This document shows, piece after piece, positions 14,818 to 35,316 of a stretch of 64,000 bases of DNA. The position numbers were made by a program, and so were the translations under genes. The notes under the pieces were generated by a model, which was not told the origin of the DNA, did no database searches, and worked only from the letters and a program-made list of their open reading frames with translations. The stretch's first letter is position 1. Every line of letters starts with the position of its first letter. Source of the DNA: Albidovulum marisflavi (GTDB taxonomy: Bacteria > Pseudomonadota > Alphaproteobacteria > Rhodobacterales > Rhodobacteraceae); NCBI RefSeq assembly GCF_025751435.1, contig NZ_JAOWKY010000002.1, positions 496,001 to 560,000 on the forward strand, given 5' to 3'.

Positions 14818-16443
14818 TCAGCCGATCCCGCCGTGAACCACCTTTCCTCCGAGCATGGTCATCAGCACCTCGGTGTCACCGATGTCGCGTGGATCCGTCA
14901 CCCAGAGGTCGCGGTCGATCACGATCAGGTCGGCCCACTTGCCCGGCGCCAGCGAGCCGGTCGTAGCCTCCCGCCAGCCTGCGCGGGCGGCGTTGATCGT
15001 GTAGCCCGCGACGCATTCGTCCAGAGTCAGGCGCTGTTCGGGCAGGAAGACGGGGAAGTCGCCCTCGGCCTTCGGCGGCTGGCGGGTGATCGCGGTTTCC
15101 ATGATCTGGAACGGGTTCAGGGTCGAAACCGTCCAGTCGCTGGACAGCGCCGCCATCGCACCCGCGTCGACGAGCGAGCGGAAGGCGTACATCCAGCGCC
15201 CACGCTCTGGTCCCACCATTGGCAAGGCGACCTCGGAAACGGAGGGCTCCAGGCGCGCCCAGAGAGGTTGGATGTTCGCAACGACCCCAAGCTCTGCGAA
15301 GCGCGGGACGTCGGTGGGGTCGATGCATTGGATGTGCGCGATCTGGTGCCAGCTTGGCCACGGTGCATTCGCCCTGCGCGCGGCCGCCATCCCATCCAGC
15401 GCCGCGCGCACCGCAAGGTCGCCGATGGCGTGCACGTGGATCTGGAACCTTGCCGCGTCGAAGGCGGTGAACATGTCGCTGATCTGGTCGGGGGAAAACA
15501 TCAGATCCGCGTTTCCGCCCTCGGCGTCCGAATAGTCCCGGATCATCGCGGCCGTTCGGTTTTCGATCACCCCGTCCAGAAAGAACTTGGCCGAATGAAT
15601 GCGAAACATCTCGGACTGGTGCGCCGCGCGCAACGCGCTGACCCTGGCAAGCGCCCCCTCGGTCGTCTCCGAGGCTTCGACCCGAACGGTCGCCAGAATG
15701 CGCGCCGTCAGCGCATCGCGCTCCACCAACCGCTTGTAGACGCGCGCATGGCGTTCCCCGATCGAGGCGTCCAGAAGCCCTGTGAACCCGTTCCGGTTCG
15801 CGTGAGCCTGCGCAAAAAGCACGCCGCCCTCGTAGGACGAATCCGGGACCGGAGGCATCCTGTGTTCGGCCCACATCGTCGCGGTTTCATGCAAAAGCCC
15901 CGTCGGAACCCCGTTCGCGTCCACCACGAAATGCCCGTTTTCCGGGTCGGGCGTGCCCTTGACCAGCCCGACCGCCTCGCATCCCTTGCTGTTCAGGCAG
16001 CCGTTGTGACCGTCAGAGGCCATGATCAGGCAGGGACGATCCGGGACCGCCGCGTCCAGCACATGACGGTCCAGATTGTGCTCTCCAAGAACGCCGGAAT
16101 AGTAGAAGCCGCCCAGCACCCAGGGGCGCTGATGCGTCGCGGCGAAGTCGCGCAACACCTGTTGCACCATCTGGACCGACATCGCGGCGGACAGGTCGGC
16201 GCTTTCGGCGTAGTGCTGCCCACCGTCCTGCACGTGTAGATGCGTGTCGTGAAATCCCGGCAGGACCTGCCTGCCCCGCGCATCGATCACTTCCGCGCCC
16301 TCGCCCGCCAGCGCAGATATCTCGGCGTCTGCACCCATAGCGAGAATTCTGCCCCCCGCCACCGCAAGCGCCGTCGCCCTGGGCTGCAAGGGGTCCATTG
16401 TCCGGATGTCGGCGTTCAGAAGGACAAGCTCGGCGCGGCGCAT
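14818..16443 (-). CDS. YtcJ-type amidohydrolase (amidohydrolase family 3)
   Basis: Metal-dependent amidohydrolase, 541 residues from the ATG at 16443, which is preceded by GGGAG; an in-frame upstream start at 16500 is less likely. Markers are the N-terminal beta-sandwich (LVLLNADIRTMDP), the metal-binding HTHLHV motif in GFHDTHLHVQ, a central FHVHAIGD-like strand (FQIHVHAIGDLAVRAALDG), the SSDWTVSTLNPF aspartate region, and a C-terminal GSLAPGKWADLIVIDRDL. YtcJ relatives hydrolyse cyclic or linear amides, but specificity cannot be read from sequence. It faces the polyamine-type transporter across a shared 188-base region, which suggests a functional link. Confidence 0.88.
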   Translation of the reverse strand: MRRAELVLLNADIRTMDPLQPRATALAVAGGRILAMGADAEISALAGEGAEVIDARGRQVLPGFHDTHLHVQDGGQHYAESADLSAAMSVQMVQQVLRDFAATHQRPWVLGGFYYSGVLGEHNLDRHVLDAAVPDRPCLIMASDGHNGCLNSKGCEAVGLVKGTPDPENGHFVVDANGVPTGLLHETATMWAEHRMPPVPDSSYEGGVLFAQAHANRNGFTGLLDASIGERHARVYKRLVERDALTARILATVRVEASETTEGALARVSALRAAHQSEMFRIHSAKFFLDGVIENRTAAMIRDYSDAEGGNADLMFSPDQISDMFTAFDAARFQIHVHAIGDLAVRAALDGMAAARRANAPWPSWHQIAHIQCIDPTDVPRFAELGVVANIQPLWARLEPSVSEVALPMVGPERGRWMYAFRSLVDAGAMAALSSDWTVSTLNPFQIMETAITRQPPKAEGDFPVFLPEQRLTLDECVAGYTINAARAGWREATTGSLAPGKWADLIVIDRDLWVTDPRDIGDTEVLMTMLGGKVVHGGIG

Positions 16444-16534
16444 CGGGTAACTCCCATCGGACAAGGCCGTATCTTTCAGCGCGAACCCCTTGATACGCAA
16501 GTGAATGATGCAGACTGCCGAAAGATTTTGAAAA

Positions 16535-16619
16535 TTCCACCAAAATGACGATGGCCGCCATACGTTTTGTACTTCCCAGACGGAAATCCGGTGTTACGCT
16601 TCCATCAAAATCACAACGG
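16535..16619. repeat. Two 20-bp direct repeats between amidohydrolase and transporter genes
   Basis: Positions 16535-16554 and 16600-16619 share 16 of 20 bases (pattern TTCCAYCAAAATSACRAYGG), 65 bp apart, inside the divergent intergenic region. A dyad ATTTTG-N10-CAAAAT at 16525-16546 overlaps the first copy. They are candidate operator sites for both the amidohydrolase gene and the transporter operon. Confidence 0.45.
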
Positions 16620-16631
16620 GGAGACGATCAA

Positions 16632-17753
16632 ATGCAGCGGATCAAGTTCATTGACCGGATGAGCCAGGGCAAGGTCAGCCGGCGTGAGATGATGAAGGCG
16701 GCAACCGCGTTCGGGGTGGGTACGCTGGTCCTGCCGAAGGTGGCAAACGCCGCAGAAGTGCTGACCTGCCTCGAATGGGGCGGCTACGACTCCGCCGATT
16801 ACTTCCAGGCCTATGTCGACAAGTATGGCGCCCAGCCCAACTTCTCGATCTTCGCGGGCGAAGAGGACGCTCTGGCCAAGGTACTTGCGGGTTTTGCCGC
16901 CGACGTCATGCACCCCTGCAACTATTCCGTCGCCAGGTTCGTGAACGCAGGTGTCGCCAGTGAGCTTGACACATCGCGCCTGTCGCACTGGAACGACGTC
17001 TTCCCCGCGCTGCAATCGGCCGAGGGCGTTATCTGGGAAGGCAAGACGGTGATGGCGCCAGCCGACTGGGGCAATTCCTCGCTTGCGTTCCGGCCCGATC
17101 TCATGCCCGCCGAATTCGCCGAGGATCCGACCTGGGCGATCTTCTACGACGAGGCCTACAAGGGCAAGGTCGCGATGAACGACAACGAGATGGCGATCAT
17201 CATCGGCGCCATGGTCGGCGGGATGCCCTACGACGAAGCTTACAAGCTGGAAGGCGCGGCGCTCGAGGCGGCCGCCAAGGAATGGGGTGCCAAGGCCGTC
17301 AATGTCAGCCGCTTCCTGTGGAACGACAGTTCGGAAGTGCAGCAGGCCATGGCATCGGGCGAGATCGTCGCCTGCTATGCCTGGAACGACCTGGTCGCGA
17401 ACCTGCGCGCCGAGGGCGTGCCGGTGACTTTCGCGAAGCCGAAAGAGGGCATGTTCACATGGTTCTGCGGGCTGACGCTTCTGAACACCGGCAAGGCGGA
17501 CGAACAGGCGGCCTACGATTTCATCGACGCCTGGCTGTCGCCTGAAACCGGCAAGGCCCTGATCGAGGGTTCGGGCTACGGCCACGCCAACATGAAGGCG
17601 TTCGAGATCTCCGATCCCGAAGCGATCGCCAACATGGGCATCACCGATCCGGTCGAAATGATGAAGGACACCATCGTCTTCAAGACGCCGACGGACGAGG
17701 TTCAGGAAGGCTTCAACAAGGTGTGGTCGGATACCAAGGCGCTGAAGGGCTGA
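16632..17753 (+). CDS. Polyamine-type ABC transporter, substrate-binding protein (Tat-exported)
   Basis: PotD/PotF-like periplasmic binding protein of 373 residues. The N-terminus carries a twin-arginine signal (SRREMMKAATAFGVG, cleavage probably after ANA), so it is folded before export. The mature part has the spermidine/putrescine-binding pattern (TCLEWGGYDSADYFQAYVDK, GEIVACYAWNDLVANLRAEG, ETGKALIEGSGYGHAN). Start chosen at the ATG at 16632 because GGGGAG lies 8 bases upstream; the open frame extends further without a ribosome site. True ligand unknown: an amine, a polyamine conjugate or a modified amino acid are all possible. Confidence 0.92.
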   Translation: MQRIKFIDRMSQGKVSRREMMKAATAFGVGTLVLPKVANAAEVLTCLEWGGYDSADYFQAYVDKYGAQPNFSIFAGEEDALAKVLAGFAADVMHPCNYSVARFVNAGVASELDTSRLSHWNDVFPALQSAEGVIWEGKTVMAPADWGNSSLAFRPDLMPAEFAEDPTWAIFYDEAYKGKVAMNDNEMAIIIGAMVGGMPYDEAYKLEGAALEAAAKEWGAKAVNVSRFLWNDSSEVQQAMASGEIVACYAWNDLVANLRAEGVPVTFAKPKEGMFTWFCGLTLLNTGKADEQAAYDFIDAWLSPETGKALIEGSGYGHANMKAFEISDPEAIANMGITDPVEMMKDTIVFKTPTDEVQEGFNKVWSDTKALKG

Positions 17754-17761
17754 CCTCCGCC

Positions 17762-18733
17762 GTGACCACCGCATCGATCGAAAGACCCGCGGAAAGACCG
17801 GCGGGGCCGCGCAGCGACCCCGCCGTCATCAGGAAGCGGCTTGCCGGTTTCGGGTTGCTTGCGCCGGCGCTCGTACTCATGTTCATGATGCTGGCGCTGC
17901 CAGTCGTGGCGCTGGTTTTGATGAGTTTCTGGACCCAGAGCGGGTTCGAGCTTGACCGCAGCATCTCGCTGGAAAACTACCGCCAGCTTGTCGCGCCATC
18001 GGACGAAACGACCTGGTGGTACGGCATCCCCTTTCCACTCGCCTATCCGGTTCCGGCGATCCTCATGCTGAAGTCGCTGGCGATGTCGCTAGTCGCGACG
18101 ATCGCAGTGATCGCGGTGTCCTACCCGATGGCCTATTTCATGGCATTCCGGGTCACGCGCCACAAGGCGCTTTGGATCATCCTCATCACGATCCCCTTCT
18201 GGACAAGCTACCTGCTGCGCGTCTTTTCGTGGAAGATCGTGCTTGGCTTCAACGGGGCCATAAACTCGGGCCTCAAGGCGATGGGGCTGATCGAAGAGCC
18301 GCTTGAGTTCCTGCTTTACAACCCCACCGCCGTCGTCATCACGCTGGCGCACGCCTGGGTCGCCTTCGCGATCCTCCCGATCTATGTTTCGCTGGAAAAG
18401 ATCGACCGGAACCTGCTTGAAGCCGCGTCCGACCTGGGCGATTCCCGGCTCAAGCGTTTCTTCCGCATCACGTTGCCGCTGTCCGCGCCCGGCACGATCG
18501 CGGCATCGCTGCTGGTATTCATTCCGACCGTGGGCGACTACGTGACGCCCGCACTTGTCGGTGGGCCGGGCGGCACGATGATCGGCAGCCTCGTGCAGGA
18601 CCTGTTCCTGAAGCAGAACAACGCCCCCCTCGGCGCGGCGGTGTCGATCGTGATGATGCTGATCATCGCGGTGCTTGTGCTCTTGTTCCTCTGGGCCATC
18701 GGCTACGGCAAGCTCAGGGCGAGGAGGTCGTGA
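17762..18733 (+). CDS. Polyamine-type ABC transporter permease (PotB-like)
   Basis: Inner-membrane permease of 323 residues with about six helices and the permease EAA-type loop (NLLEAASDLGDSRLKRFFRI). The N-terminal TM is LLAPALVLMFMMLALPVVAL. A GTG at 17762 (VTTASIERPAERP) is the best start, 9 bases after the binding-protein stop; an earlier GTG would overlap that gene. It pairs with the following permease. Confidence 0.92.
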   Translation: MTTASIERPAERPAGPRSDPAVIRKRLAGFGLLAPALVLMFMMLALPVVALVLMSFWTQSGFELDRSISLENYRQLVAPSDETTWWYGIPFPLAYPVPAILMLKSLAMSLVATIAVIAVSYPMAYFMAFRVTRHKALWIILITIPFWTSYLLRVFSWKIVLGFNGAINSGLKAMGLIEEPLEFLLYNPTAVVITLAHAWVAFAILPIYVSLEKIDRNLLEAASDLGDSRLKRFFRITLPLSAPGTIAASLLVFIPTVGDYVTPALVGGPGGTMIGSLVQDLFLKQNNAPLGAAVSIVMMLIIAVLVLLFLWAIGYGKLRARRS

Positions 18734-18735
18734 CA

Positions 18736-19539
18736 ATGCTCAGGCGTCCCGACTTCCTCTGGGTCTACGCGATCGTCTTCATCGCGTTCCTTTACGGCCC
18801 CGTGCTGCTGATGCCGCTCTTCAGCCTGAACGACGGCAACTTCGCCACCTTTCCGCTGAAGGGGTTCACGCTGCGCCACTACAGTTCGATGGCGGCGAAT
18901 ACCTCGATGATCCTCGCGCTGGAAAACAGCCTCAAGATCGCGGTCGTCGTGTCGGTGGTATCCACGGGCCTGGGCATTCCGGCGGCCCTTGCGCTGACGC
19001 GCTTCAGGCTGCCGGGGTCGCGCTCGATCGTCAGCTTCATGATGCTGCCGCTCGTGATCCCGTCGATCGTGATGGGCGTGGCGCTGCTGGTGATCATCCT
19101 GAAGTTTCTTGGCATTCAGCTTTCGCTTTGGACGGTGGCGGCCGGGCACATCCTGATCTGCCTGCCTTACTGCATGTCCGTCCTGATGTCGCGGCTTGAG
19201 GGGTTCGACCCCTCGCTTGAGGAGGCTTCGCGCGACCTTGGCTGCAACGCCTGGCAGACCTTCGTGCGGGTCACCCTGCCCCTGGCCATGCCGGGTGTGA
19301 TCTCGAGCCTGCTGATGGGGTTCATCATCTCGTTCGACGAATTCGTCATCGCCTTCTTCCTGACCGGCACCGAAAACACGCTGCCCGTCTATCTTTACAG
19401 CCAGCTGCGCTTTCCGAACAAACTGCCCGGCACGCTGGCGCTTGGCTCGCTCATCCTGCTTGTATCGGCCGTGCTCGTCGTCGTGGCCGAGATCATCCGC
19501 AAGCGCGGCGTGCAGTCGGGCAACCCCGGAGACCTGTGA
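18736..19539 (+). CDS. Polyamine-type ABC transporter permease (PotC-like)
   Basis: Second permease, 267 residues, with the EAA loop SLEEASRDLGCNAWQTFVRV and typical PotC helices (GPVLLMPLFSLNDGN, SLIVSFMMLPLVIPSIV-like segment). Two starts compete: GTG at 18730 overlapping the upstream stop, and ATG at 18736. The GAGGAGG ribosome site at 18721-18727 is only 2 bases from the GTG but 8 from the ATG, so I take the ATG. Confidence 0.92.
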   Translation: MLRRPDFLWVYAIVFIAFLYGPVLLMPLFSLNDGNFATFPLKGFTLRHYSSMAANTSMILALENSLKIAVVVSVVSTGLGIPAALALTRFRLPGSRSIVSFMMLPLVIPSIVMGVALLVIILKFLGIQLSLWTVAAGHILICLPYCMSVLMSRLEGFDPSLEEASRDLGCNAWQTFVRVTLPLAMPGVISSLLMGFIISFDEFVIAFFLTGTENTLPVYLYSQLRFPNKLPGTLALGSLILLVSAVLVVVAEIIRKRGVQSGNPGDL

Positions 19540-19542
19540 CCC

Positions 19543-20634
<1,092 letters not shown>

Positions 20635-20735
20635 CGCAAGGGAACCGTGCCACTTGACTGTGCCATGCCTCTGGTGCCCTCCGTTAATGTGTGCAATCAC
20701 TTGGGTAACAGCGCGCAAACGGAGCAGTCTAAAGC

Positions 20736-21704
20736 ATGACGCCCTTCGCCATCGCCGGCATCCAGATGCATGTCGCGGCGGTCCATTCGAACGTCGAGGC
20801 CATGCGCCACCGGATAGAGATCGCCATGGCGCGATTTCCCTGGACACAGATGGTCCTGTTCTCCGAGCTTGCGCCCTTTGGCCCTCTGGACCATTACGCC
20901 CAGCCCTTCCCCAACCAGGTGCTCGACCAGTTCTGCGTCGATGCGCGCCGCTTCGGCATCTGGCTGATCCCCGGCTCGATGTTCGAAAAGACGCCCGACG
21001 GGCGGATCTTCAACACCTCTGTCGTGATCAACCCCGAGGGCGAGATCGTCGCGAAGTACTCCAAGATGTTCCCTTTCCGCCCGTATGAGGCCGGCATTTC
21101 CGCGGGAACCGAGTTCTGCGTGTTCGACGTGCCAGAGGTCGGGCGGTTCGGGCTTTCGATCTGTTATGACATCTGGTTTCCGGAAACCACGCGGCAGCTC
21201 ACGTCCCAGGGCGTTGAGGTCCTGCTGCACCCTGTGCTGACGGGCACCACGGACCGCGACGCCGAACTGGCCATTGCGCGCGCGACCGCGGCGCAATTCC
21301 AGTGCTATGTCATCGACGTCAACGGTCTGGGCGCAGGCGGCGTGGGCCGGTCGCTGGTGGTGGACCCGACCGCGACGGTGTTGCACCAGTCGGCGGGCCA
21401 GGAGGACATCTTCCCGATCGAGATCGATCTGGACTACGTCCGGCGGCAACGGGAAACGGGCATCAAGGGCCTGGGCCAGGTGCTGAAAAGCTTCCGCGAC
21501 CGGGAAGCGGACTTCTCCGTCTACGACCGCACCAGCGGCGCCGACGCCTATCTGCACACGCTTGGGCCGCTGGCCATGCCCCAGAAGGGATCGCGCCTTG
21601 GTGTGCATGCCGACAACCCCCGCAGCGCCCTGTCGGCGCTGACCGACAAGCAGACCAGCATCGGTCAGGTGACCTATCTGAAGGGGAGATCGGCCATCGA
21701 CTAG
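20736..21704 (+). CDS. Carbon-nitrogen hydrolase (nitrilase superfamily)
   Basis: Nitrilase-superfamily amidase, 322 residues. The catalytic triad is visible: Glu44 (VLFSELAPFG), Lys110 (KYSKMFPF) and Cys143 (SICYDIWFPE). The C-terminus has about 40 residues beyond the usual core. Relatives include N-carbamoylputrescine amidase, omega-amidase and aliphatic amidases; the substrate cannot be assigned. Its place between a polyamine-type importer and a basic amino-acid-type decarboxylase suggests it cleaves an amide or carbamoyl group on an amine. A 101-base gap separates it from the transporter ATPase, so a separate promoter is possible. Confidence 0.88.
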   Translation: MTPFAIAGIQMHVAAVHSNVEAMRHRIEIAMARFPWTQMVLFSELAPFGPLDHYAQPFPNQVLDQFCVDARRFGIWLIPGSMFEKTPDGRIFNTSVVINPEGEIVAKYSKMFPFRPYEAGISAGTEFCVFDVPEVGRFGLSICYDIWFPETTRQLTSQGVEVLLHPVLTGTTDRDAELAIARATAAQFQCYVIDVNGLGAGGVGRSLVVDPTATVLHQSAGQEDIFPIEIDLDYVRRQRETGIKGLGQVLKSFRDREADFSVYDRTSGADAYLHTLGPLAMPQKGSRLGVHADNPRSALSALTDKQTSIGQVTYLKGRSAID

Positions 21705-21738
21705 ACGCCCCGTCGGCGTCGCCACGGAGGGAGAAGGG

Positions 21739-24486
21739 ATGAACGCTCAGACCCACGGCCGCAAGATACCGAGCATCGGCGACTATTACAGCGCCACGCA
21801 GCTTCGGGCGGACAGATGGAGCGCGCTGCGCGAAGCGGTCGAGGCGTTGAGCCGCCACGGTGTCGAGGGTCGTCAGGGCCAGAAGATACTCGCCTCGGTC
21901 GAGGAGCTTTTCGAAGCCTTGGCCCCCATCGAGCTCTACTGGGCGTTTCCGGGCGCGGGGGCCTTCGACCATCTGCGCCGCCTGCTTGAAAACCGCAACT
22001 TCGAAGACCTGACGACCGTCATACGGCGTGTGGTGCGGGCCCTGACCTCGGGCGCCTACCGCCGCCGCAGCATTCCCCTTGTGGCCAACGAAGCGGATGC
22101 GGAGGATTACGAGGACGAAGGCGCGCTCGCGCCCGAGGCGCGCGCGCTTGGTCGGCCCTACTTCGAGATCATGATCGTCGATCATGTGAACGAACACCAG
22201 GAAAGGTTCCTGAAATCGAGCCTGCAGCGGATGCGCCGGCCCGAGGACCCGTTCATCTACGAGGCCGTCATCGTGCCCTCGCTTGAGGATGCGCTCATCG
22301 GCATCCTGTTCAACCACAACGTCCAGGCGGTCGTCGTCCGCCCAGGATTGACGCTGAAGTCCCGCAACACCCTGGAGATCCTCAACAAGTACCTGCGCCG
22401 CGTCGGCGAGGAAGAGGACGTGGACGCGCTGGAGCCAAGCGACTACGGACCCGAGGCCTGCCGCCTGATCGCGAAGGTCCGCCCCGAGCTTGACGCCTAC
22501 CTGGTCACGGATCGCTCGGCCGAGGAAATCGCCGGACTGGACCTGGGCCGGTGCCGTCGCGTCTTCTACAATCAGGAAGACTTTCTTGAATTGCACCTGA
22601 ACCTGCTGCGGGGCGTGAACCGGCGCTTCAAGACGCCCTTCTTCAACGCCCTCAAGGAATATTCACGGCAACCGACGGGCGTCTTTCACGCGCTGCCCAT
22701 CAGCCGCGGCAAGTCGATTTCCCGCAGTCACTGGATCCAGGACATGGGGGCTTTCTACGGCCCCAACATCTTCCTCGCGGAAACCTCCGCGACATCGGGA
22801 GGGCTCGACAGCCTGCTTGAGCCGCGCGGCCCGATCAAGGAGGCGCAGGAACTGGCTGCCCGCGCGTTTGGCGCAAAGCAGACCTTCTTTGCCACCAACG
22901 GCACATCCACCTGCAACAAGATCGTGGTTCAGGCGCTGGTGCGTCCGGGCGACATCGTCCTGATCGACCGGGACTGCCACAAGTCGCATCACTACGGCAT
23001 GGTGCTTGCGGGGGCGAGCGTCGTCTACATGGAAAGCTATCCGCTTCATCCCTATTCGATGTACGGCGCGGTGCCGCTGAGCGAGATCAAGGGAAAGCTT
23101 CTTGCGCTTCGCGCGGCGGGCAAGCTTGAGAAGGTCCGCATGGTCCTGCTGACGAATTGCACGTTCGACGGCATCGTCTACGACGTCGAACGCGTCATGT
23201 CGGAATGTCTTGCCATCAAGAAGGACCTGATCTTCCTGTGGGACGAAGCCTGGTTCGCCTTCGCGCGTTTCGGCCCGACATACCGCCAGCGAACCGCGAT
23301 GAATGCCGCGAACAACCTGCGCGAAAACCTGAAACGCCCCGCAACGGCAAAGGCGTTCGAAAAGCAGGCAAAGGCGCTTCAAGGAGCGGCGGACGACGTC
23401 TGGATCAGGACCCGGCTGGCTCCGCCACCGGACGCCCGCGTGCGCGTCTACGCGACCCATTCGACCCACAAGACGCTGACCGCGCTGAGGCAGGGATCGA
23501 TGATCCATGTCAACGACCAGGACTTCAAGGGCGAGGTGGAACAAAGCTTCCACGAAGCCTACATGACCCACACTTCGACCTCGCCGAACTACCAGATCAT
23601 CGCATCGCTCGACGTGGGCCGGCGGCAGGTCGAACTTGAGGGCTTCGAGTTCGTCCAGCGCCAGATCGAAAGTGCGATGTCGATCCGCCGCGCGGTTGCG
23701 ACCCATCCGCTTTTGCAGAAGTATTTCAAGGTGCTGACCGCAGGTGACATGATCCCGGCGGAATACCGCGAAAGCGGCATGACCAGCTACTACGACCCCG
23801 AACAGGGCTGGCAGGACATCTGGCACAGCTGGGCGCAGGACGAATTCGTGCTGGACCCCACGCGGATCACGCTTGCCGTGGGCGGCACCGGCTGGGACGG
23901 CGACACGTTCAAGACGCAGATCCTGATGGACAAGTACGGGATCCAGATCAACAAGACCTCTCGCAATACGGTGCTGTTCATGACGAACATCGGCACCACG
24001 CGATCCTCGGTCGCCTACCTGATCGAGGTGCTGGTCGAGATCGCGAAGGAGCTGGACGAGCTGCTTGACGACGCCTCGCGGATGGAACGGATGGCATTCG
24101 AGCGCAGGGTGACAAGCCTTGTCGAACACGTCCCGCCGCTGCCCGATTTCTCGCGCTTTCACGCCGCCTTCCGCAGCGCCGAGGGGACGCCTGCGGGTGA
24201 CATACGCAGCGCGTTCTTTCTCGCTTATGACGAGGACGATTGCGATTACGAGGAGCTGAGCAAGTCGCTGATCGAACGCGTCGAGGCGGGGGAGGAACTT
24301 GTTTCCGCCTCCTTCGTCATCCCCTACCCGCCCGGATTTCCGATCCTGATGCCGGGACAGGTCATCAGCGCCGAAATCCTGGCCTTCATGCGCGCGCTCG
24401 ACGTGAGCGAGATCCATGGCTACCGCCACGATCTGGGGTTGAGGGTGTTCAACAAGGCCGCGCTCGCGCGCGCCGCCAATCGATAG
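21739..24486 (+). CDS. Orn/Lys/Arg decarboxylase-family PLP enzyme
   Basis: Large fold-type I PLP enzyme of 915 residues. An N-terminal wing-like region (about 1-310) precedes the Orn/Lys/Arg decarboxylase core: ATSGGLDSLLEP, FATNGTSTCNK near 385, HKSHHYG near 414, the pyridine-N aspartate in FLWDEAWFAF (Asp502) and the PLP lysine in HSTHKTLTALRQ (Lys578). About 50 extra residues lie between the DEAW and HSTHK motifs compared with ordinary family members (about 515-565). The C-terminal domain ends in the usual PPGFPILMPGQ motif. Expected chemistry is decarboxylation of a basic amino acid to an amine, but the insertion and context suggest an unusual substrate. Confidence 0.9.
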   Translation: MNAQTHGRKIPSIGDYYSATQLRADRWSALREAVEALSRHGVEGRQGQKILASVEELFEALAPIELYWAFPGAGAFDHLRRLLENRNFEDLTTVIRRVVRALTSGAYRRRSIPLVANEADAEDYEDEGALAPEARALGRPYFEIMIVDHVNEHQERFLKSSLQRMRRPEDPFIYEAVIVPSLEDALIGILFNHNVQAVVVRPGLTLKSRNTLEILNKYLRRVGEEEDVDALEPSDYGPEACRLIAKVRPELDAYLVTDRSAEEIAGLDLGRCRRVFYNQEDFLELHLNLLRGVNRRFKTPFFNALKEYSRQPTGVFHALPISRGKSISRSHWIQDMGAFYGPNIFLAETSATSGGLDSLLEPRGPIKEAQELAARAFGAKQTFFATNGTSTCNKIVVQALVRPGDIVLIDRDCHKSHHYGMVLAGASVVYMESYPLHPYSMYGAVPLSEIKGKLLALRAAGKLEKVRMVLLTNCTFDGIVYDVERVMSECLAIKKDLIFLWDEAWFAFARFGPTYRQRTAMNAANNLRENLKRPATAKAFEKQAKALQGAADDVWIRTRLAPPPDARVRVYATHSTHKTLTALRQGSMIHVNDQDFKGEVEQSFHEAYMTHTSTSPNYQIIASLDVGRRQVELEGFEFVQRQIESAMSIRRAVATHPLLQKYFKVLTAGDMIPAEYRESGMTSYYDPEQGWQDIWHSWAQDEFVLDPTRITLAVGGTGWDGDTFKTQILMDKYGIQINKTSRNTVLFMTNIGTTRSSVAYLIEVLVEIAKELDELLDDASRMERMAFERRVTSLVEHVPPLPDFSRFHAAFRSAEGTPAGDIRSAFFLAYDEDDCDYEELSKSLIERVEAGEELVSASFVIPYPPGFPILMPGQVISAEILAFMRALDVSEIHGYRHDLGLRVFNKAALARAANR

Positions 24487-24506
24487 ACAGGGACAGGGAG
24501 GATCAG

Positions 24507-25958
24507 ATGCCCAAGAAGGAACTCGGCAACATCTCGGAAATCCGCCGCTTCTTCCACACCAACAAGGACCCGATCTATTTCGTGTCGGCCACCAACTTCA
24601 ACCTGCTCGGACTTGATGAGTGGGTGAAGAACTTCAAGTACATCTGCTACATCGACTGCTTCGACGGGCGCCACCCGAACGTCTTTGTCCCCTCTGAAGC
24701 CCCGCATGAGGAATTCCAGTCGATCGAGGACATCAACAACTACCTGCTGAGCCACAAGGAGGTCATCGACCTTGTCAAGCGGCGCGGCGGAAAGCCCAAG
24801 TTCGTGTTCCTGATGTTCGACAAGAAGACCGAGGAACTGGTCAAGCAGTTGGGCGGGGAACTGTGGTTCCCGAAGGCGAAGTTGCGCGAATACTGCGACA
24901 ACAAGATCAACACCGTCCGCATCGGCAACAAGGCGGGCGTGCCCTCGGTCCCCAACACGCTGTCCGAGGTCAAGAGCTACGACCACTTGACGAAGGTCTG
25001 CGAAAAGGCCGGTCTTGGAAGCGACCTGGTGCTGCAATCGGCCTTCGGCGACAGCGGGCACACCACATTCTTCATCAAGTCCGCCGCCGATTTTCGCCGG
25101 CATGAACACGAGATCGTCGGGCAGGGCGAAATCAAGATCATGAAGCGGATCGACTGCCGCGGCTCGGCAATCGAGGCCTGCGCGACCAAGGAAGGAACGA
25201 TCGTCGGTCCGCTGATGACGGAACTGGTGGGCTTCAAGGAGCTGACCCCGTATCGTGGCGGCTGGTGCGGAAACGAGATCTTTTCGACCGCCTTCCCCGC
25301 CAAGACCCGCCAAAGGGCGCGGGAGCTGACCTTCCAGTTCGGCGAGCAGCTTCGCAAGGAGGGTTACCGGGGCTATTTCGAGCTTGATTTCCTTGTCGAC
25401 AAGAAGACCGGCGACATCTGGCTGGGTGAGTTGAACCCGCGCATCACGGGCGCATCCTCGATGACGAACCACGCGGCCTTCGCCCATGCCGACGCGCCGC
25501 TGTTCCTGTTCCACCTGCTGGAGTTCACCGGCCAGAAGTTCAAGCTGGACGTGGACGAACTGAACGCCCGCTGGGCCGACCCCGAGATGATCGACAGCTG
25601 GTCGCAGATGGTGATCAAGCACACCGAGGACACGGTCGACATCGTCACCCACGCGCCGCAATCGGGCATCTACCGGATGCTTGAGGACGGGCGGGTCGTC
25701 TATGACCGCTTCGACTATCACCGCCGAGCGGTCGAAAGCGAAAACGAGGCGTTCTTCCTGCGCATCGCGCGCCCGGGCGATTTCCGATACGAAGGCGCGG
25801 ATCTTGGCATCCTCGTGACGCGCGGGCGGTCGATGACATCGGGCTTCAAGCTGACGGACCGGTCACAGCGCTGGATCCACGGCATCAAGCAGGCGTTTTC
25901 GGCCCGTCCGCTGCCAGCGGTCAACGCCTTTGAGGATCACGCCTTCAAGATCATGTGA
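24507..25958 (+). CDS. ATP-grasp ligase of unknown substrate
   Basis: ATP-grasp family protein, 483 residues, often annotated loosely as a biotin carboxylase although no biotin-carboxylase partner is present. The start at 24507 (MPKKELGNISEI) has GGGAGG upstream; the open frame extends back into the decarboxylase gene. ATP-grasp features are the nucleotide-binding lysine region (LVLQSAFGDSGHTTFFIK), the metal-binding glutamates in GYFELDFLVD and the WLGELNPRITGASS motif. Such enzymes join a carboxylate to an amine or thiol through an acyl phosphate. Position 20 bases after the decarboxylase suggests that the amine produced there is one of the partners; that is inference. Confidence 0.85.
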   Translation: MPKKELGNISEIRRFFHTNKDPIYFVSATNFNLLGLDEWVKNFKYICYIDCFDGRHPNVFVPSEAPHEEFQSIEDINNYLLSHKEVIDLVKRRGGKPKFVFLMFDKKTEELVKQLGGELWFPKAKLREYCDNKINTVRIGNKAGVPSVPNTLSEVKSYDHLTKVCEKAGLGSDLVLQSAFGDSGHTTFFIKSAADFRRHEHEIVGQGEIKIMKRIDCRGSAIEACATKEGTIVGPLMTELVGFKELTPYRGGWCGNEIFSTAFPAKTRQRARELTFQFGEQLRKEGYRGYFELDFLVDKKTGDIWLGELNPRITGASSMTNHAAFAHADAPLFLFHLLEFTGQKFKLDVDELNARWADPEMIDSWSQMVIKHTEDTVDIVTHAPQSGIYRMLEDGRVVYDRFDYHRRAVESENEAFFLRIARPGDFRYEGADLGILVTRGRSMTSGFKLTDRSQRWIHGIKQAFSARPLPAVNAFEDHAFKIM

Positions 25959-25960
25959 CG

Positions 25961-26938
25961 ATGCACCTGACGTTCCGTGCAATATCGGAACCCCAGCCCG
26001 GCCCCCGCTGGGCCGGGCTTTTCGAGGAATACTGGCCCGCCTACCGCCGCTGGTGGGCAAAGGACGGGGTGTCGGTGCGCCCCTCCTTCGCGGAATGTCA
26101 GCGCGCGCTCAAGCGCCACATGCCCGAAATCCTGCCCCTGTGGGAAGAACTGACGGACCTTGCCGGCGGCGGCGACGACGCGGCGCGGTTTCTCAGTTTC
26201 TATGGTCCGCCAGCCTATCTTTCGGCCTGTTCGCAGGCGATCTGGCCGGGGGAAGAGCCGCTTCTGGTGCGCAACTACGACTACAGCCCCCGGGCTTTCG
26301 ACGCCCTGATCCTTCGCAGCGAATGGCAGGGACGCTTGGTCCTGGGCATGACCGACGGGCTTTTCGGCCTGGTGGACGGGATGAACGACGCGGGCCTCTG
26401 CCTGTCTCTGACCTTCGGCGGACGGCGCGAAGTGGGTGAAGGCTTCGGCGTGCCGCTGATCCTGCGCTACATCCTTCAGACCTGCGAAACCACGGCCGAG
26501 GCGGGGGCGGCGCTGAAGCGCATCCCCTCGCACATGAGCTACAACGTCACCGTTATCGACCGTGACCGGCGCTACCTCACGGCCTATCTGGCGCCGGACC
26601 GTGAAACGATCCTGACCCACGCAGCGGTGGCGACGAACCACCAGGAGCGGGTCGAATGGGTGGGCCATGCGCGCTTTACCGCCACGATCGAACGCGAAAG
26701 GTTCCTGCTGCAGCGACTGACACTGCACGTCGACCCAGAGGACAAGTTCATCGGCGCCTTCCTGCGTCCGCCCCTTTACTCGACGGCTTTCGGACAGGGC
26801 TTCGGCACCCTCTACACCGCCGCGTACCGCCCCGCCCGCGGCCTTCTGGACATCCACTGGCCCGGATCTGTCTGGCCCCTGTCCATCGCTGACTTCGCCC
26901 AGGGCGGGCGTTCGATCGTGGTTCCGGTCTCTGGCTAG
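25961..26938 (+). CDS. C45-type Ntn-hydrolase (acyltransferase/amidase family)
   Basis: About 325 residues, resembling the C45 acyl-CoA:6-aminopenicillanate acyltransferase / carcinine hydrolase-like group. The likely N-terminal nucleophile is the Cys in AYLSACSQAIW (about residue 90), followed by the family's LLVRNYDYSP motif and, later, SYNVTVIDRDRR and AVATNHQE. Family members mature by self-cleavage before Cys and hydrolyse or form amide bonds. It overlaps or directly follows the ATP-grasp gene (an alternative GTG at 25955 makes a GTGA overlap), so ligase and amide-acting hydrolase are translationally linked. No signal peptide. Confidence 0.82.
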   Translation: MHLTFRAISEPQPGPRWAGLFEEYWPAYRRWWAKDGVSVRPSFAECQRALKRHMPEILPLWEELTDLAGGGDDAARFLSFYGPPAYLSACSQAIWPGEEPLLVRNYDYSPRAFDALILRSEWQGRLVLGMTDGLFGLVDGMNDAGLCLSLTFGGRREVGEGFGVPLILRYILQTCETTAEAGAALKRIPSHMSYNVTVIDRDRRYLTAYLAPDRETILTHAAVATNHQERVEWVGHARFTATIERERFLLQRLTLHVDPEDKFIGAFLRPPLYSTAFGQGFGTLYTAAYRPARGLLDIHWPGSVWPLSIADFAQGGRSIVVPVSG

Positions 26939-26941
26939 GTA

Positions 26942-28963
26942 TCAGACGGCATTGGGCACCAGCGGAAGCAGGATCTCAAACGTTGTCCCCCGGCCTTCCA
27001 CGCTTTCCGCACTGATCCGGCCCCCGGCCTGTGCAACGATCTTGCGGCTGATGGACAGGCCCAGGCCGGTGCCCAGGCTGCGCTTGGTGGTAAAGAACGG
27101 GTCGAATATCCGGTTCACGATTTCCGGCGGCATCCCGTGCCCGGTATCGCGGACGATGATGCGCATGGCCTGGCCGATCTCGCTTTCCTCGACGCGCTCC
27201 GTTCCCAGGGTCAGCGTCCCGCCATCCGGCATCGCCTGAATCGCATTGACCATCAGGTTCACGAGAACCTGCTGAAGCTCGGTGCCGTTCAAAGCGATCT
27301 GCCCGGCCGATCGGAGGTTCAGTTCGATCCGGATCTCGGACTTCGACAGGATATGCTGAACAAGCGGAAGCGTGTCATGGATCACCTGTCCCGGATCGGT
27401 GCCGGTGTCGTCGTCGGCATATTCTTCGGGGCGCGCGAAGCGCAGAAGCTTGCTGACGAGGACATGGATTGCCTGAATCTGTTCCTGGATCAGGGAAAAC
27501 TCCGTCGAAAGCGGCTTGGCGCGCGCGCCCAGATCATCGCGCACGACGTCCAGGTTTCCCTGGATCACGGCAAGCGGGTTGTTGATCTCATGCGCGACGC
27601 CTGCGGTGATCTCGCCGATCGCGGCCAGCTTCTCGGACACGATCAGCTGGCGCGTCGTCGTTTCCAGTTCCCGGTTGGCATTCTCAAGGTCCAGGGTGCG
27701 CTCGGTGACCCGCCGCTCGAGTTCCTCCGCCCATTCCCGCAGACGCCGGTCGCGGTCCTGCAACTGATCCAGAAGCGTATCCAGATGGGCCGAGACGCGG
27801 CTGATCTCGTCCTGCCCGGTCTGCGCGCCCGTCCGCGCCCCAAGATCGCCCGCCTCGACCTGTTCGATCGTCGCGTTCATCCGTTCAAGCGGGGCGAAGA
27901 TGCCCCGCGCCCATCGCAGCAGCACCGGCACCGCAATCGCAATAACAAGGGCAAAGGTTATGGCGATCTCGATCAGGGTGGCCCGCTGGGCATCCCGGAA
28001 CGGTCGTTCCAGAAACCCGACATACAGCATCCCCACACGCTTGCCGAAGCTGTCGATGACTGGTTCGTAGGCTGAAACGTACCAGTCGTTCACCACGAAT
28101 GCCCGATCACGCCATACCTGCCCGTCGTCCAGAACACTGGCGCGAACGGCGGCAGAGACTCGCGTGCCCAGGGCGCGAACGTCCTCGAACAGCCGGACGT
28201 TGGTGCTGATGCGTACGTCGTCAAGGAACAGCGTGGCGGTGCCCTGTCGATCGCCGGGCAGGCTGCCCACGGGGTAGACCAGGTTGTTGATCTCGTCGAT
28301 GAAGCCAAGGTTGCGGTTCAGAAGCGTTCCACTGACCAATGCCCCGCCCGGCGCCGGCGCAGCGGCATGGACGATCATGCCCCGCTCTTCTTCGCTCCGG
28401 TCACTCGGCACTGCAGCCTCGGTCGGCACCAGTTGCAGGCTCGCGTGTTCGGCAAGGTGAGACGATATTTCCGCCAGGTCCGATGGCAAGAAGATGTCGA
28501 TCTCGGTCCTGCTCTGCCCTTTCAGCGCCGCGGCCACCACAGGCCAGTCCAGCGGAGCGGACATGGTGCCGTTGCGCGGGGACATCGTGACCGCGCCCCG
28601 CCGATCCACGAAGTAGAGAAAATCCAGTCCCAACGCCTGACGCTGGCGTTCAAGGAAATCGGCAAGCGCATCGCCGCGTCGGGGATCGATCGAGGCGAAT
28701 TCTGCGGAACGGCTCAGGGCCGCGACGTCGGCGCCGCGGCTTGCCAGAAGGCCCGCAAGGTGCTGGTGCGCGATCGTCAACTCGCCGCCGACCCTGTCGA
28801 TCAGCACCTGTTCGAAACGGTCGGTCCAGTTCTTGGCGGTTGACAGAAGCAGAAGGGGCAGCAGGATCAGTGTCGGGATCAGCGCGATCAGCAGAAGACG
28901 GGCGCGTACCGACTTGCGGAAAGGCAGTCCGCCGAGGGACGCAGAGGACGCCCCTTCAGACAT
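26942..28963 (-). CDS. Membrane sensor histidine kinase (Cache-HAMP-HisKA type)
   Basis: Sensor kinase of 673 residues. A first TM helix (about 20-42, LLLIALIPTLILLPLLLLST) is followed by a roughly 300-residue periplasmic Cache-like domain, a second TM (TFALVIAIAVPVLLRW), HAMP, a coiled coil and the kinase core. The H-box is AAIGEITAGVAHEINNPLAV, the N-box LVNLMVNAIQAMPDGG, and the G boxes DTGHGMPPE and SLGTGLGLSIS. The ATG at 28963 overlaps the end of the regulator gene by 8 bases, so the two form a pair. Location beside the formate dehydrogenase operon suggests control of that operon in response to an extracytoplasmic signal. Convergent with the Ntn-hydrolase gene. Confidence 0.93.
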   Translation of the reverse strand: MSEGASSASLGGLPFRKSVRARLLLIALIPTLILLPLLLLSTAKNWTDRFEQVLIDRVGGELTIAHQHLAGLLASRGADVAALSRSAEFASIDPRRGDALADFLERQRQALGLDFLYFVDRRGAVTMSPRNGTMSAPLDWPVVAAALKGQSRTEIDIFLPSDLAEISSHLAEHASLQLVPTEAAVPSDRSEEERGMIVHAAAPAPGGALVSGTLLNRNLGFIDEINNLVYPVGSLPGDRQGTATLFLDDVRISTNVRLFEDVRALGTRVSAAVRASVLDDGQVWRDRAFVVNDWYVSAYEPVIDSFGKRVGMLYVGFLERPFRDAQRATLIEIAITFALVIAIAVPVLLRWARGIFAPLERMNATIEQVEAGDLGARTGAQTGQDEISRVSAHLDTLLDQLQDRDRRLREWAEELERRVTERTLDLENANRELETTTRQLIVSEKLAAIGEITAGVAHEINNPLAVIQGNLDVVRDDLGARAKPLSTEFSLIQEQIQAIHVLVSKLLRFARPEEYADDDTGTDPGQVIHDTLPLVQHILSKSEIRIELNLRSAGQIALNGTELQQVLVNLMVNAIQAMPDGGTLTLGTERVEESEIGQAMRIIVRDTGHGMPPEIVNRIFDPFFTTKRSLGTGLGLSISRKIVAQAGGRISAESVEGRGTTFEILLPLVPNAV

Positions 28964-32403: not shown

Positions 32404-35316
32404 TTAAGCGGCGCTGATCTTGCAAAGCGTGCACTTGGTTTCCTGCATCAGCGTGACCGAGTCGTAGCCGTAGGTCTGCGCTGTGTTTGAGGCTTCGCCC
32501 AGAACATAGGGGTCCGCGCCCTCCGGGTAGTTGCTTCGCAGATCCTTGCCCTGGAAATGCCCGCCGAAGTGGAAGGGCATGAAGGCGACGCCCGCCCCCA
32601 CCCTTTCGGTGATCATCGCCATGACCTTCACCGCCGAGCCTTCGGCGCCCTCGACCCAGACCTGCTGCCGGTCGCGGATGCCAAGGTTGTTGGCGTCGCG
32701 CGGGTTGATCTCGACGAACATGTCCTGCTGAAGTTCCGCAAGCCAGGGGTTCGACCGGGTTTCGTCGCCGCCACCTTCGTACTCCACAAGGCGGCCAGAG
32801 GTCAGGATGATCGGGTATTCCTGGCTGAAGTCCTTCTGCTGGATCGACGCATAAAGCGTCGGCAGACGATATAGCCGCCGGTCGTCATAGGTCGGGTAGT
32901 CGGCGACCAGATCGCGGCGGTTGGTGTAAAGCGGCTCGCGATGCAGTGGCACCGGGTCGGGGAAGGTCCAGACCACCGCGCGGGCCTTCGCATTGCCGAA
33001 GGGCGCGCATTCGTGCTTGATCGCGACCCTCTGGATGCCGCCCGAAAGGTCGACCTTCCAGTTGGCCTTCGGACCGCCGGCCACCTCGATCGCGGCGCGC
33101 TCATCGTCTGTCAGGTCGCTATCCCAGCCCAGGTCCATCAGCATCTGCATGGTGAATTCGGGATAGCCGTCCTGGATCTCAGAACCCTGCGAATAGACAC
33201 CCTCGGCCAGCAGGTTCTGGCCGTCACGCTCCACCCCGAAACGGGCGCGGAAGGTCAGGCCGCCCTTGGACACAGGCAGGGACATATCATACAGGTTCGC
33301 CGTGCCCGGGTGGTTCAGTTCGGGCGTTCCCCAGCATGGCCATGGCAGCCCGTAGAAGTCACCGTCGCAGGGGCCGCCGTTCGCGCGAAGCGTGGTCTTG
33401 TCGAACGTGTGCTGGTTCGCCATGTGCAACTTGAGCCGTTCAGGCGACTGGCCGGTGTAGCCGATGGTCCACATGCCGCGGTTGAACTCGCGGGTGATGT
33501 CCTCGACAACCGGTTCGCCGTTTTCAACGGCGATATTGCGGAACAGACGGTCGGCGAAACCGAACTTCTCGGCGAACTTCGCGATGATGGTCTGGTCCGG
33601 AAGGCTTTCGAACACCGGCGCCACGATCTCTTCGCGCCATTGCAGCGACCGGTTCGAAGCGGTGACCGACCCGCGCGTTTCGAACTGCGTCGACGCAGGC
33701 AGCAGATAGACGCCGTCGGTCCGGTCATGCATCACGGCCGAAACGGTCGGATAGGGATCGACGACGACGAGCGTGTCGAGCTTTTCCATCGCCGTCTTCA
33801 TCTCGGCCCCGCGGGTTTGCGAGTTCGGCGCGTGGCCCCACAGCACCATGACACGGACGTTGTCGTTCTGTTCGATGTTCGCCTTGTCCTCCAGAACGCC
33901 ATCGATCCAGCGGCTGACCGGGATGCCGTTTTCGTTCATCAGGCTGCGGTCGTTGCCGTCCTTGTCCTTGGCGACATTGCCATCCGCATCAAGAAGCATG
34001 GCGAACCGGCCCTTGAGCCAATCCAGATCCTCGCCCCAGACCCGCGCCCAGTGCGCCCAGGCGCCGGGGGCCAGGCCGTAGTAGCCAGGCAGGTCGTGCG
34101 ACAGAACGCCCAGGTCGGTCGCGCCCTGCACGTTGTCGTGGCCGCGGAAGATGTTCGTGCCGCCGCCGGAAACCCCCATGTTCCCCAGGGCGAGTTGCAG
34201 CACGCAGTAGGCGCGCGTGTTGTTGTTGCCTGTGGTGTGCTGGGTGCCGCCCATGCACCAGATCACGGTGCCCGGCCGGTTGTTCGCCAGCGTCCGGGCG
34301 ACACGCTCAAGCTGGCTGCCCGGCACGCCGGTGACCCGCTCGGTTTCCTCGGGCGTCCATTTCTTCACCTCGTCGCGGATCTGATCCATCCCCCAGACGC
34401 GGGTGCGGATGAACTCCCTGTCCTCCCACCCGTTCTCGAAGATGTGCCAGAGGATCCCCCAGACGAGCGCGACGTCCGTTCCCGGACGCAGGCGGACATA
34501 TTCATCCGCATGGGCCGCGGTGCGGGTGAAGCGCGGGTCGCAGACGATCAGAGGCGCGTTATTCTCCTCTTTGGCCTTCAGGATGTGCATCAGCGAAACG
34601 GGATGCGCCTCGGCCGGGTTGCCGCCAATCAGGAAGATCGCCTTCGACTTGTGGATGTCGTTGTAGCTGTTGGTCATGGCGCCGTAGCCCCATGTGTTTG
34701 CAACACCCGCAACGGTCGTCGAATGGCAGATCCGCGCCTGGTGGTCGACGTTGTTCGATCCCCAGTACGCCGCGAACTTGCGGAACAGATAGGCCTGTTC
34801 GTTGGAATGCTTTGCCGATCCCAGCCAGTAGACGCTGTCCGGTCCGCTTTCCTCGCGCACCTGAAGCATCTTGTCGCCGATCTCGTTGATGGCGTCGTCC
34901 CAGCTCATGCGCTTCCAGACGCCGCCTTCCTTCTTCATCGGGTACTTCAGCCGGCGTTCGCCATGCGCGTGTTCGCGCACGGATGCGCCCTTGGCGCAAT
35001 GCGCACCAAGGTTGAAGGGGCTGTCGAAGCCAGGCTCCTGTCCGACCCAGACCCCGTTGTCCAGTTCGGCGATCACCGTGCAGCCGACGGAACAGTGCGT
35101 GCAGACCGACTTGGCCGTGGTCAACGCGCCCGTCGCCGCCTGCGCCGCGGCCTTGGTCACGGTCCCGCCCGTCGCCCCGACAAGCGCCAGCCCGCCGATG
35201 GCAAGCCCCGACCCCCGCAGGAAGGCACGCCTGTCGACCTTGGCCTCGGCGACCTGCGACAGGATCGTCGAACGCTGCGCCTGCCTGGTAACTCCGCTGG
35301 TCTTTTTCCTGAGCAT
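32404..35316 (-). CDS. fdhA: Periplasmic formate dehydrogenase alpha subunit (Mo/W-bis-MGD)
   Basis: Catalytic subunit, about 970 residues. A twin-arginine signal (VDRRAFLRGSGLAIGG) sends it to the periplasm. The N-terminal [4Fe-4S] site is CTHCSVGC ... CAKG, and the active-site ligand is cysteine in QARICHSTTVAG, so no selenocysteine is used. The rest is the DMSO-reductase/FdhG-type core and C-terminal molybdopterin-binding domain. Start at ATG 35316: a GGGGAG lies 6 bases before it and abuts the earlier ATG at 35322. Neighbouring tungstate uptake genes make tungsten a plausible metal, but sequence alone does not decide Mo or W. Confidence 0.96.
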   Translation of the reverse strand: MLRKKTSGVTRQAQRSTILSQVAEAKVDRRAFLRGSGLAIGGLALVGATGGTVTKAAAQAATGALTTAKSVCTHCSVGCTVIAELDNGVWVGQEPGFDSPFNLGAHCAKGASVREHAHGERRLKYPMKKEGGVWKRMSWDDAINEIGDKMLQVREESGPDSVYWLGSAKHSNEQAYLFRKFAAYWGSNNVDHQARICHSTTVAGVANTWGYGAMTNSYNDIHKSKAIFLIGGNPAEAHPVSLMHILKAKEENNAPLIVCDPRFTRTAAHADEYVRLRPGTDVALVWGILWHIFENGWEDREFIRTRVWGMDQIRDEVKKWTPEETERVTGVPGSQLERVARTLANNRPGTVIWCMGGTQHTTGNNNTRAYCVLQLALGNMGVSGGGTNIFRGHDNVQGATDLGVLSHDLPGYYGLAPGAWAHWARVWGEDLDWLKGRFAMLLDADGNVAKDKDGNDRSLMNENGIPVSRWIDGVLEDKANIEQNDNVRVMVLWGHAPNSQTRGAEMKTAMEKLDTLVVVDPYPTVSAVMHDRTDGVYLLPASTQFETRGSVTASNRSLQWREEIVAPVFESLPDQTIIAKFAEKFGFADRLFRNIAVENGEPVVEDITREFNRGMWTIGYTGQSPERLKLHMANQHTFDKTTLRANGGPCDGDFYGLPWPCWGTPELNHPGTANLYDMSLPVSKGGLTFRARFGVERDGQNLLAEGVYSQGSEIQDGYPEFTMQMLMDLGWDSDLTDDERAAIEVAGGPKANWKVDLSGGIQRVAIKHECAPFGNAKARAVVWTFPDPVPLHREPLYTNRRDLVADYPTYDDRRLYRLPTLYASIQQKDFSQEYPIILTSGRLVEYEGGGDETRSNPWLAELQQDMFVEINPRDANNLGIRDRQQVWVEGAEGSAVKVMAMITERVGAGVAFMPFHFGGHFQGKDLRSNYPEGADPYVLGEASNTAQTYGYDSVTLMQETKCTLCKISAA

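Follow-up and report, generated by a model that had tools for sequence, protein, structure and literature searches.

A conserved cassette of nitrilase, decarboxylase, ATP-grasp ligase-like and C45 hydrolase genes in Albidovulum marisflavi and other proteobacteria, probably serving an undescribed nitrogen-compound pathway

Which genes of a crowded bacterial locus belong together, and what could they do? We have analyzed a stretch of 64,000 nucleotides from the 3.8 Mb genome of Albidovulum marisflavi (contig NZ_JAOWKY010000002.1, positions 496,001 to 560,000), the whole of which is called the window here. It contains eight same-strand genes with short gaps: four for an ABC importer, followed by those for a nitrilase-superfamily amidase, a large Orn/Lys/Arg-type pyridoxal phosphate (PLP) decarboxylase, an ATP-grasp ligase-like protein and a C45-type Ntn hydrolase. 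An earlier sequence-only reading proposed that importer and enzymes, perhaps with a facing YtcJ-type amidohydrolase, import a basic amino-acid derivative, decarboxylate it, and build or dismantle an amide conjugate. All eight genes are present and their families are as read; overall this interpretation is partly supported, and decarboxylating a compound and building or dismantling an amide is still a fair description of the enzyme set. We are nearly certain that the nitrilase, decarboxylase, ligase and C45 genes constitute a conserved cassette. Since these four genes travel together, often inside clusters for the breakdown of arginine, gamma-aminobutyric acid (GABA) or ectoine, it is probable that they make up an undescribed pathway for nitrogen compounds.

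Searching the species genome collection with an alignment of the ligase gave 589 candidate stretches and, among them, at least 470 relatives (tblastn E<=1e-3), of which the best 80 were all examined. These 80 loci are mostly from Rhodobacterales and, being the closest relatives, are not independent of each other; among the matches listed, the closest named ligase relatives are also from Rhodobacterales, for example Defluviimonas aestuarii (87%). The order nitrilase, decarboxylase, ligase, C45 on one strand is found in 75 of the 80 loci. Contig ends cut the cassette in four others, removing the nitrilase in L034, L079 and L088 and the C45 gene in L103, and one locus (L036) is rearranged, with the decarboxylase ahead of the nitrilase. 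A nitrilase was matched in 77 of the 80, and the remaining three end at contig ends. In more distant loci the decarboxylase can come last (L128, and the ectoine-operon family of gammaproteobacteria described below); the C45 and nitrilase genes face the decarboxylase and ligase in L130; and the decarboxylase of L147 is on the opposite strand, with about 2.8 kb between ligase and C45. No nitrilase match was found in L131, L132, L146 and L149, and no decarboxylase match in L145 and L148; L150 holds the ligase and C45 only, and the decarboxylase is absent from the cluster on Cupriavidus necator pBB1. Ligase and C45 both occur in all 34 loci recounted outside the 80, with one of the pair reduced to a remnant in L025 and L109. 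Because this pair is present whatever its neighbours, it is the constant part of the cassette.

The same association is seen when genomes, rather than loci, are counted. In an even sample of 289 genomes across the class, the ligase (by model cut-off) was found in 7, the decarboxylase (E<=1e-100) in 8 and C45 (E<=1e-30) in 12. All 7 ligase genomes hold both the decarboxylase and C45; the probability of the ligase-decarboxylase overlap by chance is 2.6e-13 if the genomes are independent, which is not quite so. The weaker ligase matches seen in most genomes of this sample are other ATP-grasp proteins. Only G184 has the decarboxylase without the ligase. C45 occurs without a full ligase in G197, where a 38% ligase remnant adjoins it, and in G056, G093, G107 and G182, at 39-43% identity. 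Elsewhere, the ligase was found in 11 of 398 genomes of a phylum sample (E<=1e-60), 10 of 369 in the class of G640, 2 of 48 in the order of G350 and 40 of 151 in the family of G640. The carriers are alpha-, beta- and gammaproteobacteria, and the cassette is patchy in distribution and tightly linked. The co-conservation anticipated by the sequence-only reading thus extends to the nitrilase, decarboxylase, ligase and C45, which co-occur elsewhere, and stops short of the importer and the YtcJ gene, which are local.

The neighbours of the cassette provide some clues about its function. Among the 80 loci, a gabT homolog (>=50% identity) lies in the fetched flanks of 30. A TRAP-type importer is likewise found in 30; as checked on L071, it pairs an NMT1_3-family binding protein, presumably of the TAXI type, with a fused DctM permease. 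A cupin regulator (>=50% identity) is found in 25 and a universal stress protein (>=40%) in 23. The gabT of R. ponti scores over the TIGR00700 cut-off. In the window's genome one gene, out of 18 matches of any strength, does so; it is on another contig, so gabT is unlinked to the cassette there. A gammaproteobacterial locus (L142) carries gabT and a succinate-semialdehyde dehydrogenase (SSADH) gene, both over their cut-offs, together with a 69% speB, divergent from a complete cassette. The gabT of L143 is also over its cut-off, and in L021 a 45% speB relative lies upstream of a full cassette. As a separate observation, a glutamate-synthase-family gene occurs near the cassette in the Roseobacter group (6 of the 80 loci; L106:3856-5475).

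Arginine contexts were found at two places of the ligase tree. In Shinella zoogloeoides, plasmid XES5 and Sinorhizobium RAC02 the nitrilase, ligase and C45 genes are part of a D-arginine/ketoarginine cluster from which the decarboxylase is absent. The cluster is annotated in Shinella and XES5 with an alanine racemase, a D-amino acid dehydrogenase, a 5-guanidino-2-oxopentanoate decarboxylase, an aldehyde dehydrogenase and an agmatinase. In Shinella the nitrilase is 60% identical, the ketoarginine decarboxylase scores over NF005712 (737 vs 500 bits), the agmatinase scores over TIGR01230 (212 vs 174 bits), and an amino acid permease lies near the cassette genes. The records of the Shinella, RAC02 and Cupriavidus necator plasmids gave no decarboxylase match, in a search that covered plasmids only; XES5 has one match elsewhere on the plasmid. 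The same kind of cluster is present in the gammaproteobacterial genome G944 (L145), the ligase of which branches apart from the Shinella-type ligases in a FastTree tree read without support values. The known arginine transaminase and D-arginine dehydrogenase routes, which lead to 4-guanidinobutyrate and GABA, are the setting of three cassette genes at these two places.

In one gammaproteobacterial family, which is probably halomonad-like, the cassette lies inside the doe/eut operon of ectoine degradation. The ligase is present in 40 of 151 sampled genomes of this family, and each of the 40 loci was read. Genes for DoeB, Lrp, nitrilase, ligase, C45, decarboxylase, aldehyde dehydrogenase and an aminotransferase share one strand in 39 of them (L127, L129, L151-L187), and DoeA is also found in 38 of these 39 (none in L160); the 40th locus is L150. 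DoeA, DoeB and EhuR of L127 all score over NCBIfam cut-offs. The doe operon also occurs in relatives that lack the cassette: DoeA is found in 14 of 20 cassette-free genomes of the family (L188-L201), with Lrp and aldehyde dehydrogenase within about 0.2-0.3 kb of each other in 4 of the 14 and neither of them nearby in 5. The L127 DoeA and DoeB were not matched in the window (1e-15 over half length), and the window cassette was rejected as a doe-operon member on that ground.

Six further loci were read on symbiosis plasmids of Rhizobium leguminosarum and S. meliloti. There the operon consists of decarboxylase, ligase and C45, without the nitrilase; it adjoins nifHDKEN in strain Vaf10, and five of the six loci adjoin a conserved set of peptide-type importer, amidase, regulator and serine hydrolase genes. 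Upstream of the decarboxylase in three of the six (L110, L109 and L113) are NifA-type TGT-N10-ACA sites followed by sigma-54-type sites, matching at 11, 11 and 10 of 12 positions, respectively; those of L110 lie at 8583-8702. As a control, 2000 stretches of 1 kb were drawn at random from the fetched loci: 10 of them reach 11 matches and 79 reach at least 10. L112 has NifA-type sites and no good sigma-54 site, L117 has one far upstream and L111 has none. The C45 of L109 is a 22% remnant, L109 and L112 have a fragmented decarboxylase, and L113 has a second partial ligase. Behind the nif genes of the R. leguminosarum Vaf10 plasmid there are also genes for an aspartate-semialdehyde dehydrogenase and a 'uridylate kinase' (L141:33388-35522).

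The enzymes themselves belong to recognizable families. The nitrilase residues E44, K110 and C143, the Glu-Lys-Cys set called intact in the sequence-only reading, are invariant in 9 aligned rows, window included. No equivalog model reaches its cut-off for this protein (AguB, 63.9 vs 410 bits; deaminated glutathione amidase, 71 vs 355). The decarboxylase scores 260.8 bits against PF01276 (gathering cut-off 27), and the lysine first picked out as binding PLP is K578 in all 153 loci covering the site. None of the NCBIfam Lys/Arg/Orn models was passed, the best scoring 208 vs 968 bits. The protein shares the PLP core, the THK lysine and the C-terminal PYPPG motif with AdiA, LdcI and SpeF; it differs from them in being longer, in having Asn738 for the Glu of the VEKTG motif, and in scoring far below their cut-offs. 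Its nearest solved structure is that of Rv2531c (9n0n/9n0o, E 5.7e-249 across residues 19-912; also 9n0p), a full-length homolog, from which the window decarboxylase differs in coming with a ligase and C45 (Rv2531c being compared as a protein only). Arg742 follows Asn738 in 150 of the 153 loci, which are not independent; Rv2531c has the equivalent of Asn738 and lacks that of Arg742. In a 2026 review (PMC12910592), Rv2531c is described as a probable decarboxylase whose activity was not clarified by a structural study, and another paper (PMC4832331) describes a negative patch lining the channel to the active site. The decarboxylase has a sister clade, about 49% identical, with no ligase in its annotated stretches. 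Members of this clade (L137, L138, L139) lie beside aspT aspartate-alanine antiporters, in one case with an aspartate 4-decarboxylase (aspD) and an HdeA-type chaperone as well, and it is possible that sister-clade decarboxylase and aspT form an undescribed acid-resistance pair.

The third protein of the cassette scores over the NCBIfam model NF005096, named 'biotin carboxylase' (759.4 vs 684 bits). However, no Pfam family matches it at E<=0.001, and at E<=5 only CPSase_L_D2 (0.025) and ATP-grasp_3 (0.25) appear; the Pfam biotin carboxylase domains are absent, and a true biotin carboxylase was rejected. Residues of the ExNPR type bind Mg-ATP in ATP-grasp enzymes, and E308, N310 and R312, which are of this type, are invariant in 32 rows. 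We regard the protein as a predicted, ligase-like ATP-grasp enzyme with a putative amide-forming activity. By profile it is nearest to pyruvate/biotin carboxylases and carbamoyl-phosphate synthetase, and the folds of D-Ala-D-Ala ligase, PurK and biotin carboxylase match its structural model to about the same degree. The model (predicted local distance difference test score, pLDDT, 60) is too weak for the substrate pocket to be read. The carnosine-type ATP-grasp ligases are an amide-forming comparison; as an identity for this protein they were rejected, since none of its 11 PDB matches is named carnosine synthase. The 'biotin carboxylase' name stands in public annotation (NF005096/PRK06524) despite the missing Pfam domains in the window protein.

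C45 scores over NF040521 (178.7 bits, cut-off 85). Its model (pLDDT 89) has isopenicillin N acyltransferase (2x1c/2x1d) as best fold match, with the same fold and nucleophile at 14-16% identity, and Cys92, the predicted autoproteolysis site, is invariant in 26 rows. In L142 a second C45 gene (12087-13391) lies directly behind that of the cassette. The sequence-only reading allowed that close characterised homologs in unrelated pathways would count against it; no core enzyme scores over a reaction-naming NCBIfam cut-off except for the ligase with its 'biotin carboxylase' model, and this exception was set aside because the ligase's domains do not bear the name out.

Because the contexts of the 80 loci, of the arginine clusters and of L142 and L143 meet at GABA, we favour a catabolic module near GABA, which we put at about an even prospect. 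We are slightly less sure of its fuller form, that the cassette is part of routes which degrade nitrogen-rich amino acids or osmolytes, via an amide conjugate, as far as GABA or a comparable omega-amino acid. The decarboxylase would make a decarboxylated compound; in some lineages the set of racemase, D-amino-acid dehydrogenase, ketoarginine decarboxylase and aldehyde dehydrogenase apparently replaces it. The ligase, spending ATP, would carry the decarboxylated compound or its carboxylate as an amide conjugate, the C45 protein would open the amide to give a free omega-amino acid, and GabT and SSADH would take this to succinate, while the nitrilase may act on a terminal amide or ureido group and set ammonia free. 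That the ligase builds and C45 opens a conjugate, in this order, is doubtful as a specific proposal. GABA as the meeting point and the catabolic direction are both inferred, with moderate confidence. A still broader scheme appears unlikely in its entirety: an undescribed ATP-dependent amide-carrier route, with a ligase and a C45 hydrolase unrelated to PuuA and PuuD, would take decarboxylated amino acids to GABA and would have been adopted by the metabolism of arginine, of ectoine and of nitrogen in roseobacters; on some symbiosis plasmids of rhizobia it would have come under NifA/sigma-54 control, where, together with the importer-amidase set, it may form a rhizopine-like exchange compound.

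Several observations weigh against a catabolic route to GABA. Its weakest point is that the ketoarginine route on paper reaches GABA without a ligase or C45. In the flanks of 50 of the 80 loci gabT was not found at >=50% identity, and speB was found in none of the 80. The Glu of VEKTG, which we take to be a substrate-binding residue in AdiA and LdcI, is Asn738 in all 153 (non-independent) loci. The hints about the decarboxylase substrate conflict: speB and the ketoarginine sets point to arginine; the sister clade beside aspT/aspD points to acidic amino acids, as does Cupriavidus oxalaticus, where C45 is followed by a gene of the dicarboxylate/glutamate symporter family and by one for a family-3 binding protein, below specificity cut-offs; and the doe operon points to diaminobutyrate, as does S. 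meliloti ml66, where ectB lies near a relative with an insertion sequence (IS) element between them. As these hints disagree, no substrate was assigned. Finally, the interval between Lrp and aldehyde dehydrogenase in the 14 cassette-free doe loci holds FdhD in one, FdhD and a molybdopterin oxidoreductase in two, and inserts of 1.6 kb and 7 kb in one each; with other inserts there, the doe site is an insertion site and thus a weaker sign of shared function.

The main rival is biosynthesis, which we consider rather unlikely. The cassette would then make and recycle a small amide, such as a dipeptide-like osmolyte, a storage compound or a signal, from a decarboxylated amino acid, with the ligase joining, C45 transferring or hydrolysing, and the nitrilase trimming. 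This agrees with the constancy of the ligase-C45 pair and with the rhizobial loci, given their nif-side position, NifA/sigma-54-type sites in 3 of 6 and importer-amidase set in 5 of 6; genes for rhizopine synthesis and catabolism have a layout that resembles that of the rhizobial cassette. However, the other named neighbours are mostly breakdown genes and importers. Less probable is that the ligase acts as a biotin-independent, PurK-like carboxylase of guanidino or urea nitrogen, after which C45 and the nitrilase would yield ammonia and CO2. The profile and the PurK likeness of the model fit such a role, speB in the arginine contexts would free urea, and in L131 the operon is preceded by a gene of the urea transporter family; on the other hand, the fold model is weak, D-Ala-D-Ala ligases match it equally well, and the ectoine and rhizobial contexts are without obvious guanidine. 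An oxidative decarboxylase is a slightly more remote idea: arginine would give 4-guanidinobutyramide, the nitrilase would convert this to 4-guanidinobutyrate and SpeB to GABA, and the ligase and C45 would act separately. It would complete the route in L142 (decarboxylase, nitrilase, speB, gabT and SSADH) and parallels the DavB/DavA route of lysine, although the nitrilase is retained in Shinella-type clusters that lack the decarboxylase. Very unlikely, finally, is a single importer-plus-enzymes pathway of all eight genes, which has in its favour the common strand, a 101-base gap and the lack of a sigma-70-like promoter in a scan of little power, but which fails as a general rule with the binding protein and YtcJ in none of the 80 cassette loci.

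The catabolic reading has a precedent in the Puu pathway, in which an amine is converted by an ATP-dependent step to a gamma-glutamyl amide, oxidized, and released by amide hydrolysis to GABA. The proposed conjugate logic is the same; the cassette, however, has an ATP-grasp-like ligase and C45 in place of the glutamine-synthetase-like PuuA and of PuuD, and there is no oxidase among its four families. The passages covered of the CATCH-N paper (PMC7268258) name no ATP-grasp or C45 step. No description of the four-gene set was found in the literature searched, which comprised titles and abstract starts and covered few subscription journals; as far as searched, the parts are known families, and their combination and chemistry are undescribed. 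Once solved, this chemistry would put a name to a step in the nitrogen use of roseobacters, to one in the ectoine operon of that gammaproteobacterial family and possibly to one in root nodules, and it would suggest test substrates for decarboxylases of the Rv2531c class.

The importer next to the cassette seems to be its local companion. The description of the importer as polyamine-type holds at the family level only; its ATPase scores over the polyamine subfamily model TIGR01187 (366 vs 355.6 bits). When the binding protein is aligned to the putrescine-binding 7xjm, a Cys stands at the place taken for PotD Asp257 and an Ala, with acidic residues close by, at that of Glu171, two residues that we take to be polyamine contacts. 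Its Tat signal was read by eye. Neither the binding protein nor YtcJ has a match at 1e-10 in any of the 80 loci, and the permeases match distantly, one in L029 only and the other in L029 and L032, which places the importer outside the conserved unit; an ABC ATPase of some kind occurs in 21 of the 80. Without such conservation the importer gives no reading of the substrate, and with at least one presumed polyamine contact also lost it was set aside as a substrate clue. YtcJ was likewise rejected as a partner of the cassette.

The features of the locus are listed in Table 1. The first permease most likely starts at the GTG at 17762, 8 bases past the stop of the binding protein gene. The ligase starts at the ATG at 24507, and the open reading frame start at 24240 is therefore too early. 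The nitrilase and decarboxylase are separated by 34 bases and the decarboxylase and ligase by 20, and the overlap of C45 with the ligase that had been noticed earlier amounts to 4 bases. A scan of 16400-27100 gave no sigma-70-like promoter, against an average of 1.9 in shuffled sequences; such a scan says little in a genome of this kind.

Table 1. Genes of the cassette and its local companions in the window.
Feature	Position	Strand	Family matches and residues	Place
YtcJ-type amidohydrolase, divergent	14818..16500	-	Amidohydro_3	local companion
PotD/PotF-like periplasmic binding protein (SBP)	16632..17753	+	SBP_bac_8	local companion
ABC permease, PotB-like	17762..18733	+	BPD_transp_1	local companion
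ABC permease, PotC-like	18730..19539	+	BPD_transp_1	local companion
ABC ATPase, PotA-like	19543..20634	+	ABC_tran, TOBE_2; TIGR01187 over cut-off	local companion
Nitrilase-superfamily amidase	20736..21704	+	CN_hydrolase 7.6e-32; Glu44-Lys110-Cys143	core gene 1
Large Orn/Lys/Arg-type PLP decarboxylase	21739..24486	+	OKR_DC_1 2.5e-77, OKR_DC_1_C; PLP Lys578	core gene 2
ATP-grasp ligase-like protein	24507..25958	+	NF005096 759 bits, cut-off 684	core gene 3
C45 autoproteolytic Ntn hydrolase/acyltransferase	25955..26938	+	PF03417 6.2e-28 (AAT/C45); Cys92	core gene 4

Elsewhere in the window, the segments 34105-34953 (-) and 52208-53371 (+) show a likeness to molybdopterin oxidoreductases, at 27-28% identity.

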